From the NCBI GenBank assembly GCA_030154025.1, contig JASKKT010000025.1, positions 1 to 32,603 of the forward strand: 32,603 bases of DNA, in the 5' to 3' direction. This DNA comes from Methanolobus sp. (lineage in GTDB: Archaea; Halobacteriota; Methanosarcinia; Methanosarcinales; Methanosarcinaceae). The position numbers and the translations under genes are program-made. Shown piece after piece: positions 7,171-25,781 of the stretch. The number at the start of each line of letters is the position of its first letter. The first letter of the stretch is position 1. The notes under the pieces are model-generated. The model saw nothing but the letters and a program-made list of their open reading frames with translations, did not search any database and was not told the origin of the DNA.

Positions 7171-7225
7171 AGGCAAATAATGTTCATGTAGTAAGGATCT
7201 GTGGGGTTATAGCATCGTTGCGACA

Positions 7226-10200
7226 GTGAGCTCGGATATAGGTTTTGTACACGATATGCTTCAGGGAAGCTATTTTTCGCTATTGTACGATACCACGGAG
7301 GAACTCACGAGCATAGTAGCGGTATTCCTCGAGGCGGGCCTGCAGAACAATGAACGCTGTGTGTGGGCAGTCTCGGGCCAGATCGATGCTGAACGGGCTC
7401 GGGAATCCCTCCGGCAGAGGGGTGTGGATGTCGGAAGATATCTTAAGAGCGGACAGCTGATAATAACTCCCTGTACGGAATGTTACTTCTCAGGGAGGGG
7501 TCCCTTCCTGGGAGGTATCCCCGATATGTGGGATTCATTCTATAGTGAGTCGATCAATGCAGGCTATGAAGGCTTGAGGATAGTGGACAAGTTCACAATA
7601 GCCGGGGAGGAGGCATGGAATGCCTTTACAGCTTATCTTAAAGAAGGCATGGATGCAATACGCCGTAAACGTATCGTGGCCATGTTCGCCTTTCTCAAGG
7701 ATGCAAGGACGGGACAGGAGATACTGGACATAATCGGCATGCATGACAGCACGGTGATCAGGAGAGGTGACAAATGGACACTGCTCCAGAGTTCCTCCTA
7801 CTGCAGCCCCTTCCTTAAAGAGAATCGTTTCCCGGATGATGTGCTTGAAAATATCTGGACCGGCGTATGGGCTGTTGACAGGAACGATAATATAGTATAT
7901 TTCAACAAAGGCATGGAATCAATATCCGGCCTTTTAAGGGCCGATGTGCTGGGGAAGAAGCTGGTGGAGTTCATACCGAGGCAGCTGAACGATGAAGAAC
8001 TCGGTTTTGTTGACCTTTTCCAGATAGCAAAAGAAAACCTGCAGTCGAAAAGCTATGACGTTTTTCCCTTCATCAAACCTGACGGTCAGTTCATTTACCA
8101 TAGTGGTGTCCTGCTCCCTCTGGTCGATGAGGACGGTAGGTATAAGGGAATGATGGGCACTATTGGTAAGGTCTTTGAGCAGAACATCACTCACAGCATA
8201 CTCCGGGACAGGCTTCGGTCCCTGGAAAAGTTGGAAGACATCTACAGGAAGAGCCCGGTGGTCGCCTTTCTCTGGAGGGCGGACGAGGGCTGGCCTGTGG
8301 AATTTGTCTCCGAGAACATAAGCCAGTTCGGATACACGCCGGAGTTCCTGACTTCCGGGCACCTGAGATACGAGGATATTGTGCACCCGGACGACCGTGA
8401 TATGGTACGAAAGGATGTCTCACAGCTTGAGCTTGAAGGAAGGACATATTTCTCAAAGGAATATCGTCTGCTGACAAGGTCAGGAGAGGCACGCTGGGTG
8501 ACCGAGAGGTCATACCTGATAAGGGATGAGAAAGGTGCTCCCTCCTATTTCCAGGGGATAATAATAGACATCAATGACCGGAAAAAAGCTGAAGAGGCTG
8601 CCCTGGAGGCTGAGAAGAAATATCACCTGATATTTGAGAACTCGCCTCTGGGAATATTCCATTTTGACGAGAACGGTATCATTACCCATTGCAATGAGAA
8701 GTACCTGGAGATCATAGGGCTTCAGAAAAAGGAGGATATTATCGGCTTTAACATGGTAACGACCGTGAAGGACGAGAAAATGAAAAAAGCAGTTGATTCC
8801 GTACTTTCAAGGAAAACCGGGCACTTTGAAGGTGAGTATCATACGGCAGTCAGCGGCATAACTATAGCCATAAAAAGTCACTTCAGCCCTAACATCTCAG
8901 ACGATGGCAAGTTCCTGGGTGGCATCGGCATATTTGAGGATATTTCGGGACGTAAGAAGGCCGAAGAGGCATTCCGCCTGGATGAGTCCAGGCTTGAAAC
9001 GCTACTGAAGCTGAATCAGATAACGAACAAGTCCCTTAAGGAAATAGCAGATTTCGTACAGGAGGAGGCTGTAAGGCTCACTCAGAGCAAAATGGGATAC
9101 CTCGCCTTCCTCAACGAGGAAGGAAGTGTGCTCACGATTTACTCATGGTCGAGGAATGTAATGATAGACTGCAATGTGGATGAAAAGAAGTTTGATTACC
9201 TGCTCGAATCCACCGGCCTCTGGGGCGAGTCTGTCCGTCAGAAGCGTCCTCTCATAATAAACGACTATACGGTGCCCAACCCCCTAAAAAAGGGTTATCC
9301 TCCCGGCCACATCAAGATGAAACGCTATATGAGCGTTCCCATTCTTGACGGTGATAAGGTCGTTGGGGTTGCGGGTGTTGGCAATAAGAGCAGCGATTAC
9401 GACCAGGCTGATGTCAGGCAGCTGACCCTGCTCATGGAAGGAATGTGGCAGATAATCGAGCAGAAGAAAGTTGACGATACCCTGCGCAGGTATGCAGGTG
9501 AGCTTGCCCAGGTCAACAGGGAGCTGTACAAGGCAAACCTTGAGCTGTCTGCAGCCAATCAAGAACTGAAATCGCTGGACAGGATGAAGGATGAATTCCT
9601 GTCCAATGTGAGCCATGAGTTCAAAACACCTCTTACTTCCATTCAGGGTTACAGCCAGCTCATATCCGACGGGACCCTCGGTGCGGTCAACGAGCAGCAG
9701 AAAAAGGCAGTGGATACCGTAATACGTAATTCCGAGAGGCTCAGGAAACTGGTGGATTCCCTTCTATATATCAGCAGGGCGCAGGCGGGAAGTCTCACAT
9801 ATTCCTTTTCCGACGTATCGATAGTCTCGGTTATCGGCAACTCCATACAGGACCTTGCCCTGCAGGCTGAAAAGAAAGATATCACCATTAAAAAGGATGT
9901 AGGTGAGGACCTGCCTGTCATCTGGGCAGACAGGGACAAGCTTGTCGATGTAATGGTGAACCTTCTTGATAACGCGATCAAGTTCACTCCACAGGGAGGA
10001 ATTGTGGAAGTAAGTGCTTTAGTTGAAGAGGACCAACTTCACATCCGTGTAAGTGATTCTGGTATCGGTATTCCGGAAGACAAGTTGCCCAATCTCTTCG
10101 GGCGTTTCTACCAGGTGGATTCCTCCATCCGGAGAAGGTATGGCGGGACAGGTCTTGGCCTGTATATCTGTAAGATGATAGTGGAGGATCATAAGGGAAA

Positions 10201-10270
10201 GATATGGGCTGAGAGCGAAGAAGGAAAGGGAAGTACTTTCCATGTGCTCCTGCCTTTGAAAAAAGACTGA
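7226..10270 (+). CDS. Soluble MEDS-PAS-PAS-PAS-GAF sensor histidine kinase
   Basis: This 1014-residue protein has no membrane segment. The order is: MEDS (methanogen/methylotroph DcmR sensory) domain, about 10-190; three PAS domains near 205-315, 335-452 and 465-575, the second and third ending in DINDRKKAEEA and DISGRKKAEEA; GAF, about 590-745; a coiled coil, about 750-790; HisKA with the phospho-acceptor H797 in SNVSHEFKTP; and HATPase with N box NLLDNAIKF (912-920), G1 DSGIGIP (944-950) and G2 GGTGLGL (973-979). All catalytic boxes are intact. The start is GTG without an obvious SD; ATG at residue 11 is the alternative. No response regulator gene lies nearby, so its partner is elsewhere. 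The signal is unknown; MEDS domains are linked to C1/methylotrophic regulators, which fits a methanogen. Confidence 0.93.
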   Translation: MSSDIGFVHDMLQGSYFSLLYDTTEELTSIVAVFLEAGLQNNERCVWAVSGQIDAERARESLRQRGVDVGRYLKSGQLIITPCTECYFSGRGPFLGGIPDMWDSFYSESINAGYEGLRIVDKFTIAGEEAWNAFTAYLKEGMDAIRRKRIVAMFAFLKDARTGQEILDIIGMHDSTVIRRGDKWTLLQSSSYCSPFLKENRFPDDVLENIWTGVWAVDRNDNIVYFNKGMESISGLLRADVLGKKLVEFIPRQLNDEELGFVDLFQIAKENLQSKSYDVFPFIKPDGQFIYHSGVLLPLVDEDGRYKGMMGTIGKVFEQNITHSILRDRLRSLEKLEDIYRKSPVVAFLWRADEGWPVEFVSENISQFGYTPEFLTSGHLRYEDIVHPDDRDMVRKDVSQLELEGRTYFSKEYRLLTRSGEARWVTERSYLIRDEKGAPSYFQGIIIDINDRKKAEEAALEAEKKYHLIFENSPLGIFHFDENGIITHCNEKYLEIIGLQKKEDIIGFNMVTTVKDEKMKKAVDSVLSRKTGHFEGEYHTAVSGITIAIKSHFSPNISDDGKFLGGIGIFEDISGRKKAEEAFRLDESRLETLLKLNQITNKSLKEIADFVQEEAVRLTQSKMGYLAFLNEEGSVLTIYSWSRNVMIDCNVDEKKFDYLLESTGLWGESVRQKRPLIINDYTVPNPLKKGYPPGHIKMKRYMSVPILDGDKVVGVAGVGNKSSDYDQADVRQLTLLMEGMWQIIEQKKVDDTLRRYAGELAQVNRELYKANLELSAANQELKSLDRMKDEFLSNVSHEFKTPLTSIQGYSQLISDGTLGAVNEQQKKAVDTVIRNSERLRKLVDSLLYISRAQAGSLTYSFSDVSIVSVIGNSIQDLALQAEKKDITIKKDVGEDLPVIWADRDKLVDVMVNLLDNAIKFTPQGGIVEVSALVEEDQLHIRVSDSGIGIPEDKLPNLFGRFYQVDSSIRRRYGGTGLGLYICKMIVEDHKGKIWAESEEGKGSTFHVLLPLKKD

Positions 10271-21066: not shown

Positions 21067-21118
21067 TGTTGTTATTGAAATAACAACAGAAAACCGCATT
21101 TTGATAAAGTATTTATAG
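21067..21118 (+). promoter_or_regulatory. Operator-like palindrome plus TATA box of the exporter operon
   Basis: Arms TGTTGTTATT (21067-21076) and AATAACAACA (21079-21088) form a perfect 22-bp palindrome with a GA centre. TATTTATAG (21110-21118) is the TATA box, about 22 bp downstream of the palindrome edge, so a bound protein would sit over or next to the factor B site. The predicted transcript begins near 21140. The TrmB-family regulator at the end of this gene group is a natural candidate binder. The remaining bases of 20973-21184 hold no gene. Confidence 0.6.
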
Positions 21119-21184
21119 AATCAATCCTATCTATCCCAAAATTATAGATGTTCAAACCCAACTAAAAATCGAGGAGGCTTATAT

Positions 21185-23551
21185 ATCAAAAATCTATTTG
21201 AGAAGCTTGGTCAGTTCATTGAAGATAACACCATCCCTATAATCCTCATCGCTTTTCTGTGCATCATAATATCATTCCAGGGTGCCCAGTTCATAGAAAT
21301 GAAGTCGGGTACGGATACCTTTGTAGAGAAGACTTCGACTCTATATCAGGACTTTGACCATCTCTACCTCAACCTTTTCAGCACCGGCTCCATCGTAATA
21401 CTGGTGGAGGGGGATGATGTAGCGGACCCTGCCGCCTTGCAGGCAATGGACCGGATACACCAGATCACCCAAAATATCCCGGGCGTGCTGGAGGTCACAT
21501 CCCCTTCCCAGGTAATAAAGGAAACCAATTACCGTAATACAGGCACCCGTACGCTCCCGGATGACGCTGATACGCTCGATTCCATCATTGCCTCCGATAT
21601 GCCCTCATACATAATGCCTGACAGGACGCATGCTGTCATCTCTGTTGTTTTCAGTGGTACAACCTCTGAAAGCATGCAGGAGGAAATCCTCCGGGAGACA
21701 CAGGCTGCCATCGGTTTTGCCGAGTTCCCTCCCGGCTACAAGGTAATAGTTACGGGTGACGTGGCTTTCGGCACTGCAATAAATGACGAGATGAACTCCA
21801 GTATGGGCACCCTGCTGGTAATTTCAGTGCTGTTGATGGTTGTGGTGTTGTATCTGGTCTTCAGGCACGTCCGCTGGAGACTCCTGCCCCTTCCGGTAGT
21901 CCTGCTCGGAATTATTTTTACATTCGGTGCAATGGGATACCTGGATATACCGATGACCATGGTATCTATGGCAGCCTTCCCTGTGCTCATAGGCCTTGGT
22001 ATTGATTATGCTATCCAGTTCCATAACCGTATCGAAGAGGAATTCGAGCGTAATCACTCTGCAGCCACTGCAGTGATAGAGACAATTAAGCATACAGGTC
22101 CTGCAGTACTGATAGCGCTCATTATTACCGCGCTTGGTTTCTCCTCGCTGTTCACATCCTCAGTTCCCATGGTGCAGGACTTTGGGAAACTGCTACTGAT
22201 CGGCATAATAATGTGCTTCCTTTCCTCTCTCTTTGTGGGTGTCACGGTTCTCTATGGCTTCCATGAATTTTCTCAGCATCCTGTTCTCAGTAAGCTTCCT
22301 TTCAGAAAGAAAAGATCGGATGTGAATAAAAAAGCAAAGCACGAGGACACAGTCCATAAACCCGATCTTACAGAGCGACTTCTGGAAAAGGCAGCCGTGC
22401 TTTCTATGCGCCATCCCTTGATTGTGATAGGGGTTGCAGGTTTCCTTTGCCTGGGAGGCCTCTATTTTGATGCGCAGGTCCCTATACAGACCGATGTACA
22501 GACATTTGTTCCGCAGGATATGCCTGCTCTTATTGATCTGGTTCACATGGGTGAGATTCTTGGAGGGAGCGAGGAACTCAATGTTATCATAAAAACAGAT
22601 AATAATGCTGATCCACAGCTACTGGAGTGGATAGATCGCTTCTCTTCCCACGAGGTTGAGAACAGGGGTCACATCTACAGTTCTTCCAGTATCGTTGATG
22701 TTGTCAAGTCCATGAACGGCGGTGCAATACCCGATGATTCCCGGGAGGTCAGGGCATTGTATGCACAGGTCCCGGAAGTCCAGAGAGAGAGGCTGCTCCA
22801 TGGCAACAACATGCTGATCCTTAACCTGGGAATTGGCAATGCCATGAGAGAGCTCGGGCTGGAAGGTATCGAGGATCTTACACATGTGGTACAGGAAGAC
22901 ATAGGATGGATGCCGCCACCGCCAGGTACCAGTGTGACAATAACAGGTGGTTCTGTTGTGTTCTTCACGGTCATCTCGGCACTCACATCCGGGCGTATGC
23001 TCATGACCCTGCTTGGACTCGTACTGGTCTTTGCTGGCTTGCTTGTGATCTACCGTGATTATCTGAAGGCCCTTACGCCTGTGGTCACAATGTTCATGGT
23101 GATCGGATGGTCAGGCGGCCTGATGTATTACCTGGGCGTGGAGTACACTCCCATGACAGCCACGCTGGGAGCTCTCATACTTGGTGTCGGTTCGGAGTAT
23201 GCAGTGCTTATGATGGAAAGATACTTCGAGGAAAGGGACAAGGGTGCGGCTCCGGAAGAGGCAATGAGAGAAGCCAGCGTCAAGATCGGAAAGGCGATCG
23301 TGACCTCAGGTCTTACGACAGTCTTCGGTTTCTCAGCCCTGATAGCCTCACCTTTCAGCATGACAAGCAATTTCGGTTTCATAACTGTCATGGATGTCAT
23401 TCTGGCATTGCTCGCCTCGTTCATTGTGTTCCCGGCAGTTATCGTTTTGCTCGATAAGCACCGTGAAGGCCGCAGGCTTCGGAATAATGAGCGTGCACTG
23501 CAAGTTGCAGGTTCTGATATAAAAGCAGCCCATAAGGAGGCAGCGTTGTGA
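21185..23551 (+). CDS. RND/MMPL-family exporter (COG1033, HAE3-like), apparent ATC start
   Basis: This 788-residue transporter has two repeats, each one helix, one extracytoplasmic domain and a helix bundle: a helix at about 18-36, a loop domain at 40-205, helices at 208-358, then a helix at 413-428, a loop at 430-600 and helices at 608-758. The conserved fourth-helix-type motifs are GLGIDYAIQFH (270-280) and GVGSEYAVLMMER (667-679). The first in-frame ATG (21299) lies after the first helix. The frame is open from 21119 but has no ATG, GTG or TTG before 21299. GGAGG (21173-21177) is followed 7 nt later by ATC (21185), giving (M)KNLFEKLGQFIEDN, a normal cytoplasmic N terminus. The next gene overlaps by 4 nt. 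Relatives move lipids or hydrophobic compounds; the substrate is unknown. Confidence 0.85.
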   Translation: MKNLFEKLGQFIEDNTIPIILIAFLCIIISFQGAQFIEMKSGTDTFVEKTSTLYQDFDHLYLNLFSTGSIVILVEGDDVADPAALQAMDRIHQITQNIPGVLEVTSPSQVIKETNYRNTGTRTLPDDADTLDSIIASDMPSYIMPDRTHAVISVVFSGTTSESMQEEILRETQAAIGFAEFPPGYKVIVTGDVAFGTAINDEMNSSMGTLLVISVLLMVVVLYLVFRHVRWRLLPLPVVLLGIIFTFGAMGYLDIPMTMVSMAAFPVLIGLGIDYAIQFHNRIEEEFERNHSAATAVIETIKHTGPAVLIALIITALGFSSLFTSSVPMVQDFGKLLLIGIIMCFLSSLFVGVTVLYGFHEFSQHPVLSKLPFRKKRSDVNKKAKHEDTVHKPDLTERLLEKAAVLSMRHPLIVIGVAGFLCLGGLYFDAQVPIQTDVQTFVPQDMPALIDLVHMGEILGGSEELNVIIKTDNNADPQLLEWIDRFSSHEVENRGHIYSSSSIVDVVKSMNGGAIPDDSREVRALYAQVPEVQRERLLHGNNMLILNLGIGNAMRELGLEGIEDLTHVVQEDIGWMPPPPGTSVTITGGSVVFFTVISALTSGRMLMTLLGLVLVFAGLLVIYRDYLKALTPVVTMFMVIGWSGGLMYYLGVEYTPMTATLGALILGVGSEYAVLMMERYFEERDKGAAPEEAMREASVKIGKAIVTSGLTTVFGFSALIASPFSMTSNFGFITVMDVILALLASFIVFPAVIVLLDKHREGRRLRNNERALQVAGSDIKAAHKEAAL

Positions 23552-24648
23552 AGGATATAAATAAAAGAATGCTTCTGAGGAGGTTTAGCCTGATTGCTGC
23601 AGGGATCTGTATCCTTACGGCCACAATGATGCCTGTGACATTTGCATCGGCATCAAAGGAATTCATACCTCCTTCTGATCAAACCACTACAAACTACTAC
23701 CGCAGCTATGGTGAGCCGGATATATCAGTTTCCGTGCTGGGTGACACCGAGCTCGAAAGAGGGGAAACTGCCAACCTTGAACTGGTCCTCTCTAACAGGG
23801 GAATATTCTATGGTGTCAAAAGCATCACCAGTGTAGGTACATCCACTGCCGCTCATGCTCTTTCTTTGCAGGAACTGGAGTATGAAAAGCTCAGGACGAC
23901 CGCATATGGAGTAAAGACGAGCCTTGTTTCCGGCACGGAGTATATCAAGGTAGATCCCACTACCAGCAGCCAGACACTGAAAGACCCCCTGTATCCCGGC
24001 TCATTGCCAAAGGACCCGCTCTCGTACACAATTACTGTTTCCAATAATGCACCGGCCGGAGTCTATATGCTGGAAATGCCTGTTACCTACGAGTATCAGA
24101 GTGATGTAAGGATGACCCGCGGAGAGTCAGTGGTCCTGGGATTGCCGGACCTGGACCATGTAAAATACTATACTCCTGTCAGCAAGACCCTCCATGTCCC
24201 GGTCATAGTAAAGCCGGCAGCAAAATTCGAAGTGACGAATGTTTCAGGTGAACTCATAGCCGGCAGGCAGAGCTTTGTCAACATCACCTATACCAATATG
24301 GGAGAACTCCCTGCAGCAGATGCGGTTGCCCGGCTGATCGTAATGAAACCACTCGCTGCCGACAGCTCAGTAAGGCCCATGGGCACGCTTATGCCGGGTG
24401 AGAGCAGGACTGTATCGTTCAGTATCTCTTCAGAGAGGGGGGCACTCGACAAGACATATGCCCTCGATACAGAAGTGAAATACCGTGATGTGAACGAGGA
24501 CCTTGCTTACTCCGGGAATATGAAAGCCAATGTGGATATGCAGTCTTCAGAGAGACAATTCAATATTACCGCCCTGGCTCTGGCAGGTATAGTGGTAATG
24601 TGTATCGTACTAATCATAAAGACCATGAAAAAGAATCGTAAAGGATAG
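23548..24648 (+). CDS. Membrane-anchored COG1361-type surface protein A
   Basis: This 366-residue protein has an N-terminal signal (RR, then FSLIAAGICILTATMMPV, cleavage near FASA at about 35), an extracytoplasmic part of two Ig-like beta domains (about 55-200 and 215-325) and a C-terminal membrane helix (about 340-360) with a basic tail KKNRKG. It belongs to the archaeal COG1361 / S-layer-domain group. The GTG start overlaps the exporter stop (GTGA), with GGAGG at 23536-23540, 7 nt upstream. It is a paralogue of the next gene: both share the NYYxxYGxPDxS opening and the NAPAGxYxL segment. The position suggests an accessory or adaptor subunit of the exporter; this is inference. Confidence 0.82.
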   Translation: MKDINKRMLLRRFSLIAAGICILTATMMPVTFASASKEFIPPSDQTTTNYYRSYGEPDISVSVLGDTELERGETANLELVLSNRGIFYGVKSITSVGTSTAAHALSLQELEYEKLRTTAYGVKTSLVSGTEYIKVDPTTSSQTLKDPLYPGSLPKDPLSYTITVSNNAPAGVYMLEMPVTYEYQSDVRMTRGESVVLGLPDLDHVKYYTPVSKTLHVPVIVKPAAKFEVTNVSGELIAGRQSFVNITYTNMGELPAADAVARLIVMKPLAADSSVRPMGTLMPGESRTVSFSISSERGALDKTYALDTEVKYRDVNEDLAYSGNMKANVDMQSSERQFNITALALAGIVVMCIVLIIKTMKKNRKG

Positions 24649-24674
24649 AACCAATAGGACGGAGGAGGAAAATC

Positions 24675-25781
24675 ATGCCTAGGATAGGAAGACTGAAGAA
24701 AGCAACTTCAATCTTTATATTAATGATTATAATTATGCAGGCTGCGGTGCCTGCAAGTGCACAGATGGCCGTTATGGACATCAAGCTGCCCGATTTCTTC
24801 AATTTTGACGAGAACTACTATACGGTATATGGCGGTCCGGATGTGAGTGCCACATTCGTAGGAAGCAATGAGTTCTCGCGGGGAGACAAAGTGACTATCA
24901 ATCTTAACCTCATGAATAAGGGTGTTATAACCGGTTTCAAGTCCGAGACCAGGTATGATTCCGTATCAACCCTCGATCATAAGATACAGCGGGCCGAGAT
25001 GGGTTACGAAGCCCAGAGAACCACAGCTATCGGAATAGTTGCAGTCCTCAACTCCAGCTCCCCGCATGTAAGGGTGAAGTCCGGTCCTCAGGAAGCAGGG
25101 ACCCTGCCCAGCGGCCAGCAGGTTGAAGATCCTGTGAGATTCAACATCGAGATATCAAAGAACGCACCAGCAGGAACTTATCCTCTCAGGCTTGACCTGT
25201 TCTATGGTTATCAGGAGAATGTGCAGATCAGCGGGGACGATGAAACTGATCTTGGAATAACCAATATGGAGGTCGGATTGTGGTATGCAGTGGGACACCA
25301 GAACCAGACTATGAACATCATCGTAAAGGATGAGGCACGGTTTGAAGTAGTGGATGTAGAGGGTGATCTTTATGCAAACCAGGAGAACCTGCTCTACGTA
25401 ACTTTCAGGAACAGTGGTGAGGAGCCTGTGAAGGATGCTATAGTAAGGATAAGTGCAGATACTCCCTTCAGTACCACAGATGACCAGGCATTCCTGGGTT
25501 CTCTTGCACCAGGGGAAACTGCACGGGCGCTCTTCAGGTTGAAGGTGGACGAGTCGGCCGTACCGAAAGACTATGCCATCAACAGCGAGATCAGATATGA
25601 GGACAGTGACGGGCACAGCCGGATTTCCGATACTCTCAAGATAAGGACACAGACACTGCCCGCAAGATCTGCCTTTGACGGGCTTGCAGCAAATGCAGGG
25701 ATCCTGGCAGTTATAGTTCTTGCTCTTGTTGCTGTGGCAGGATACTTCGTATATGGCAGGTTCCTGAAGAAGAAGGAGTAA
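24675..25781 (+). CDS. Membrane-anchored COG1361-type surface protein B
   Basis: This 368-residue protein has the same layout as its neighbour: signal peptide (RLKK, then IFILMIIIMQAAV and PASA cleavage near 29), NYYTVYGGPDVSATFVG at about 51, NAPAGTYPLRL at about 160, a second beta domain with LYVTFRNSGEEPVKDAIVRIS (about 237-257), and a C-terminal helix AGILAVIVLALVAVAGYFV with a KKKE end. GGAGGA at 24661-24666 gives a strong SD before the ATG. It lies 26 nt after protein A. The two are diverged duplicates, so they may form a heteromer around the exporter or do different jobs. No enzymatic motif is seen. Confidence 0.82.
   Translation: MPRIGRLKKATSIFILMIIIMQAAVPASAQMAVMDIKLPDFFNFDENYYTVYGGPDVSATFVGSNEFSRGDKVTINLNLMNKGVITGFKSETRYDSVSTLDHKIQRAEMGYEAQRTTAIGIVAVLNSSSPHVRVKSGPQEAGTLPSGQQVEDPVRFNIEISKNAPAGTYPLRLDLFYGYQENVQISGDDETDLGITNMEVGLWYAVGHQNQTMNIIVKDEARFEVVDVEGDLYANQENLLYVTFRNSGEEPVKDAIVRISADTPFSTTDDQAFLGSLAPGETARALFRLKVDESAVPKDYAINSEIRYEDSDGHSRISDTLKIRTQTLPARSAFDGLAANAGILAVIVLALVAVAGYFVYGRFLKKKE

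Follow-up and report, generated by a model that had tools for sequence, protein, structure and literature searches.

A putative AUH start codon conserved across Methanosarcinales in an HAE3-family RND exporter gene

Introduction

The near-cognate codons used as starts in eukaryotes are AUA, AUC, AUU, ACG and CUG, and initiation factors of the eIF1, eIF1A and eIF2 types are common to archaea as well. Among bacteria, infC starts with ATT in E. coli and with ATC in Streptomyces, as cited in PMC5472188; this gene encodes the proofreading factor IF3 and autoregulates. Streptomyces sigR, whose product is not a translation factor, has a GTC start conserved in the genus and repressed by IF3; annotation had put the start at a GTG inside AGGAGGTG instead of at the true GTC (PMC5472188). 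For archaea, the only starts listed in a recent review of translation initiation are AUG, GUG and UUG (PMC7531240), and no report of archaeal AUU, AUA, AUC or ACG starts was found in the open literature searched, most subscription papers not being covered.

The exporter gene of Methanolobus described here resembles infC in that an AUH start is conserved between species, and the reading of a weak start by a proofreading factor, known for infC, is proposed for it too. However, its product is an archaeal membrane protein and archaea use aIF1/aIF2, not IF3; since the product is an RND exporter and not an initiation factor, this is not autoregulation of the infC type. With sigR it shares genus-wide conservation in a gene that does not encode a translation factor, and among the exporter relatives the same trap occurs of a misleading GTG within the Shine-Dalgarno sequence. 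Yet sigR uses GTC or GTT in one bacterial genus, whereas the exporter start would be AUA, AUU or AUC in an archaeal order and has no experiment behind it yet. The codon set is that of the eukaryotic near-cognates, but the exporter start appears to be positioned by a Shine-Dalgarno sequence, without long-range scanning.

Results and Discussion

The exporter gene and its putative start

The window, i.e. the whole stretch of 32,603 nucleotides that was analysed, carries on its forward strand an exporter frame (21119-23551) that is open throughout and has an in-frame TAG stop directly upstream (21116-21118). The first-pass annotation had stated that this frame contains no ATG, GTG or TTG before 21299 and that a GGAGG (21173-21177) lies exactly 7 nucleotides before an ATC codon, and the sequence agrees on both counts: there are no canonical codons between 21119 and 21298, the ATG at 21299-21301 is the first, and the GGAGG, which is part of a longer GAGGAGG (21171-21177), is followed by CTTATAT and then by the ATC at 21185-21187. 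Read from this ATC, the coding sequence (21185-23551, forward strand) has 788 codons and would begin with (M)KNLFEKLGQFIEDNTIPIILIAFLCIIIS. The product is clearly a full-length HAE3 RND transporter, scoring 724.1 bits against a cut-off of 351.9 for TIGR00921 (NCBIfam), with residues 19 to 755 aligned to positions 7 to 733 of the 733 in the model; it also matches Pfam MMPL and has orthologues genus-wide. Other members of this group of MmpL/HpnN relatives start with ATG or GTG in distant lineages instead, and a paralogue in the same genome (L002, 44% identical) has an ordinary ATG start.

Codons 2 to 38 (21188-21298), which lie 5' of the first ATG and hold the first membrane helix, differ between the window and its relative L005 by 13 synonymous and 3 non-synonymous codon changes, third positions carrying 14 of the 18 substitutions; against L004 the changes are 4 and 0. 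No coding-constraint pattern was seen in the 22 triplets 5' of the ATC in the same comparison. Because codons 2 to 38 are constrained and the upstream triplets are not, the stretch that includes the first membrane helix is inferred to be translated, with no visible upstream extension. A start annotated at 21299 would, as had been predicted, remove that helix. The Met codon at 21299, conserved in 77 of 78 relatives, has no Shine-Dalgarno sequence and appears to be an internal Met rather than the start, although an additional short form initiated from it cannot be excluded.

Conservation of the start codon

Within the main clade of relatives, which comprises Methanosarcinaceae and ANME-2-type archaea, the codon aligned with the ATC of the window is ATA in 38 genes, ATT in 28, ATC in 12 and ATG in only one (n = 79). 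Loci known from one same genome were removed before this count and genes with ambiguous starts (L071, L073, L098 and L187) were left out; L085 was scored by hand as ATC at the -6 place, the tree script having printed GTT without being able to apply the -6 offset. The putative non-canonical start is therefore conserved across species (78/79). The genome nearest to the window, with a protein 95% identical, shares its ATC. In the next group of Methanolobus the codon is ATA, and in the remainder of the genus it is ATA, ATT or ATC. The Methanosarcina copies fall into a group with ATT and a group with ATA. ATA also occurs in Methanococcoides and Methanomethylovorans, and of the Methanohalophilus records (L086, L131 and L135) two carry ATT and a further one ATG. 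In the ANME-2 records the ATC or ATA is placed two codons earlier, 8 nucleotides from a GGGGG Shine-Dalgarno sequence of their own. Altogether, a Shine-Dalgarno sequence with ATH at the same codon was found in about 80 related genes, far beyond chance; its spacing, 7 to 8 nucleotides across the genus, exceeds that of most genes.

The first-pass annotation had left open whether the ATC was a genuine non-canonical start or a single-base error or mutation of ATG, and had suggested an alignment with close relatives. One base (21187) would indeed be enough to restore ATG. However, codon 1 is ATC in the nearest genome too and ATC, ATA or ATT in close and distant orthologues, and it occurs in independently assembled isolates and MAGs, so that an error of sequencing or assembly is excluded, as is a recent mutation of an ATG. 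The exporter start is very probably real, and it is conserved.

A conserved internal isoleucine would likewise show ATH and never ATG at this column, with initiation elsewhere in the frame, either upstream, for instance at a GTG, or only at ATG 21299; the conservation of that Met and the presence of some upstream NTG in 26 of the 79 relatives are compatible with such a reading. Yet 53 of the 79, the window among them, have no in-frame canonical codon upstream of the start, and in a further 21 the sole upstream canonical codon is at -9 to -15, within the Shine-Dalgarno zone. The GTG at -9 of other Methanolobus (in GGAGTG) was considered as a start and rejected, since it overlaps the Shine-Dalgarno sequence and has none of its own, and since in 53 of the 79 relatives the upstream frame is entirely free of canonical codons. 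Initiation at ATG 21299 would lack a Shine-Dalgarno sequence and lose the first membrane helix, and the onset of coding constraint at codon 2 also speaks against an internal isoleucine. The same column has ATG, GTG or TTG in outgroups, among them most of L175-L186, and ATG or GTG in the more distant families (L301, L303, L305, L306 and L109), so the odd codon appears to occupy the place where others start. We consider the internal-isoleucine reading improbable. The exporter has a non-canonical start with a Shine-Dalgarno sequence and without an in-frame alternative, and in this it meets an infC/sigR-like criterion.

A related family (f7, inferred to be Methanotrichaceae) was found to be divided at the start column: one group has mostly ATG, TTG or GTG, another has ATA or ATT, and a third, consisting of one genus, has an invariant ACG (L163, L167, L171-L173 and L315). 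Exporter copies in G017, G014, G158, G150, G172 and G108 have an in-frame TGA or TAA within the matched stretch; these are perhaps decaying paralogues or matches that overrun the gene end.

Other near-cognate starts in the same genomes

We scanned two complete Methanolobus genomes (G004 and G020) over several hundred kilobases and roughly 350 distinct genes. Nearly all gene pairs had ATG, GTG or TTG in common; besides the exporter, three genes differed. QueC (G004:C1, 136361-137105, forward strand; also L239-L244, L249 and L257) has a Shine-Dalgarno sequence with ATC, ATT or ATA in Methanolobus and in g11 (Methanomethylovorans by record match), while most of the other genera use ATG. The second is a response regulator whose output domain is MetOD1 (G004:C1, 255423-256296, reverse strand; also L269-L274); it has a Shine-Dalgarno sequence with ATT, ATA or ATC in Methanolobus and ATG, TTG or GTG elsewhere. 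The third gene encodes a protein without Pfam match (L362, L363, L365, L366 and G004/G020; six species), with an apparent ACG start located just after an in-frame stop and behind a Shine-Dalgarno sequence in four Methanolobus species, and ACG also in two other genera. Several other pairs flagged by the scan were dropped as shadow ORFs, a probably leaderless TTG or ordinary GTG/TTG starts. By our estimate, near-cognate starts amount to about 1% of the genes in this two-genome sample. That further genes have them speaks for genuine AUH initiation by the ribosomes of these archaea and makes it less likely that the exporter is unique.

Within the window, a sensor kinase-like gene (ORF 7181-10270, forward strand) has a presumed GTG start at 7226 that aligns with an ATA in G006, and neither has a clear Shine-Dalgarno sequence.

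Rarity of ATG and proposed mechanism

The near-cognate starts of QueC, the response regulator and the ACG gene would also fit an exporter start that is real but without regulatory meaning, near-cognates being tolerated behind a good Shine-Dalgarno sequence and the codon itself being neutral. Such an explanation places the start at the same position and differs only in what it means. A neutral site, however, should reach ATG more often. G is the third base in 1 of 78 sequences at the start codon, compared with a mean of 20% over 80 conserved fourfold columns of the same gene, which served as an empirical control and among which just one was as G-poor. The true contrast should be larger still because ATG is normally the preferred start (79% of the longer genes in M. 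mazei, PMC11456600). On a tree built with FastTree, ten start-codon changes were counted within the main clade. A single one leads to ATG and the other nine interchange ATA, ATT and ATC; alone, this count is weak statistics. Taken from these alignments, selection against ATG at the exporter start is likely, not proven, and a neutral codon remains possible, if the less probable of the two. An AUH codon is evidently not strictly required at the aligned position, given the ATG of Methanohalophilus and a CTG in one Methanococcoides-like copy.

With good confidence, then, we propose that the exporter is translated from the AUC at 21185 by means of the Shine-Dalgarno sequence and Met-tRNAi, with AUG rare at this site and the start probably kept weak by selection. 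The strong Shine-Dalgarno sequence would set the small subunit 7 nucleotides 5' of the AUC, and the initiator Met-tRNA would pair with it despite the third-position mismatch, so that Met is inserted. Across Methanosarcinales the codon drifts among AUA, AUU and AUC and almost never to AUG, which suggests that selection keeps the start weak, and this weakness may hold the pump low or tunable. The probable gate is start-codon proofreading of the aIF1 type. In Sulfolobus, aIF1 disfavours complexes on non-AUG codons, and its fidelity function has been studied in Pyrococcus (PMC6237735); for that reason one would expect a weak exporter start that responds to proofreading. A Pfam search found the aIF1 gene in 23 of 24 genomes, with an in-frame ATG in both of the starts that were read, the source genome not being one of these. 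Start position, conservation and rarity of AUG rest on the comparison of sequences, and Met as first residue, low efficiency and control by aIF1 are inferred without data from proteins, ribosome profiling or reporters. The earlier comparison of a weak, regulatory start with the AUU of bacterial infC is a fitting analogy; a regulatory role has not been demonstrated and is merely made likely by the long-term avoidance of ATG.

The start could in principle be made effectively canonical by frameshifting, by editing of the RNA or by a second initiator tRNA dedicated to it. We found no support for any of them: neither a conserved RNA structure nor an Rfam match was found in the leader, and a whole-genome pattern search for a second initiator tRNA was negative, since among six matches to the initiator-type anticodon arm GGGCTNNNAACCC the only tRNAs were tRNA-Met(CAT) and tRNA-Arg(TCT). 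A TAT-anticodon-like match at G000:C33 is not a tRNA. These mechanisms are accordingly given very little credence.

A broader reading of the proposed AUC initiation, toward which we lean only slightly, is that in Methanosarcinales AUA, AUC and AUU, and probably ACG, may form a standing class of Shine-Dalgarno-dependent starts for about 1% of genes, with a eukaryote-like laxity of aIF1/aIF2, and that in addition the weak start of the HAE3 gene may have been kept by selection as a translational throttle from the ancestor shared by ANME-2 and Methanosarcinaceae onwards. If true, a deeply conserved AUH start, accompanied by other examples in these genomes, would give infC and sigR a counterpart in archaea and offer a natural substrate for testing aIF1 start proofreading in vivo. 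The N-termini of such genes would then be systematically mis-annotated, standard gene finders misplacing or truncating them.

Upstream region and operon

A perfect palindrome, TGTTGTTATT-GA-AATAACAACA (21067-21088; TGTTGTTATT-N2-AATAACAACA in general form, strand not assigned), is located in the interval that separates cca from the exporter gene, 5' of a TATA-box-like sequence TATTTATAGA (21110-21119, forward strand) from which a leader of about 40 to 45 nucleotides is predicted. Its arms are invariant in six genomes and its spacer is altered in 4 of 5 relatives (L004-L007 and L027), with a chance expectation of 0; it was not found in other groups of Methanolobus. The palindrome is likely an operator, and a TrmB-like regulator gene is found three genes further 3'. 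Transcription of the exporter is probably controlled too.

Two proteins of secreted type are encoded after the exporter (23548-25781). The first (23548-24648, forward strand) is a secreted or membrane protein without family match whose gene starts with GTG here and with ATG in G006, and the second has a NEW3 domain. Both probably belong to one operon with the exporter and are possible partners of the pump.
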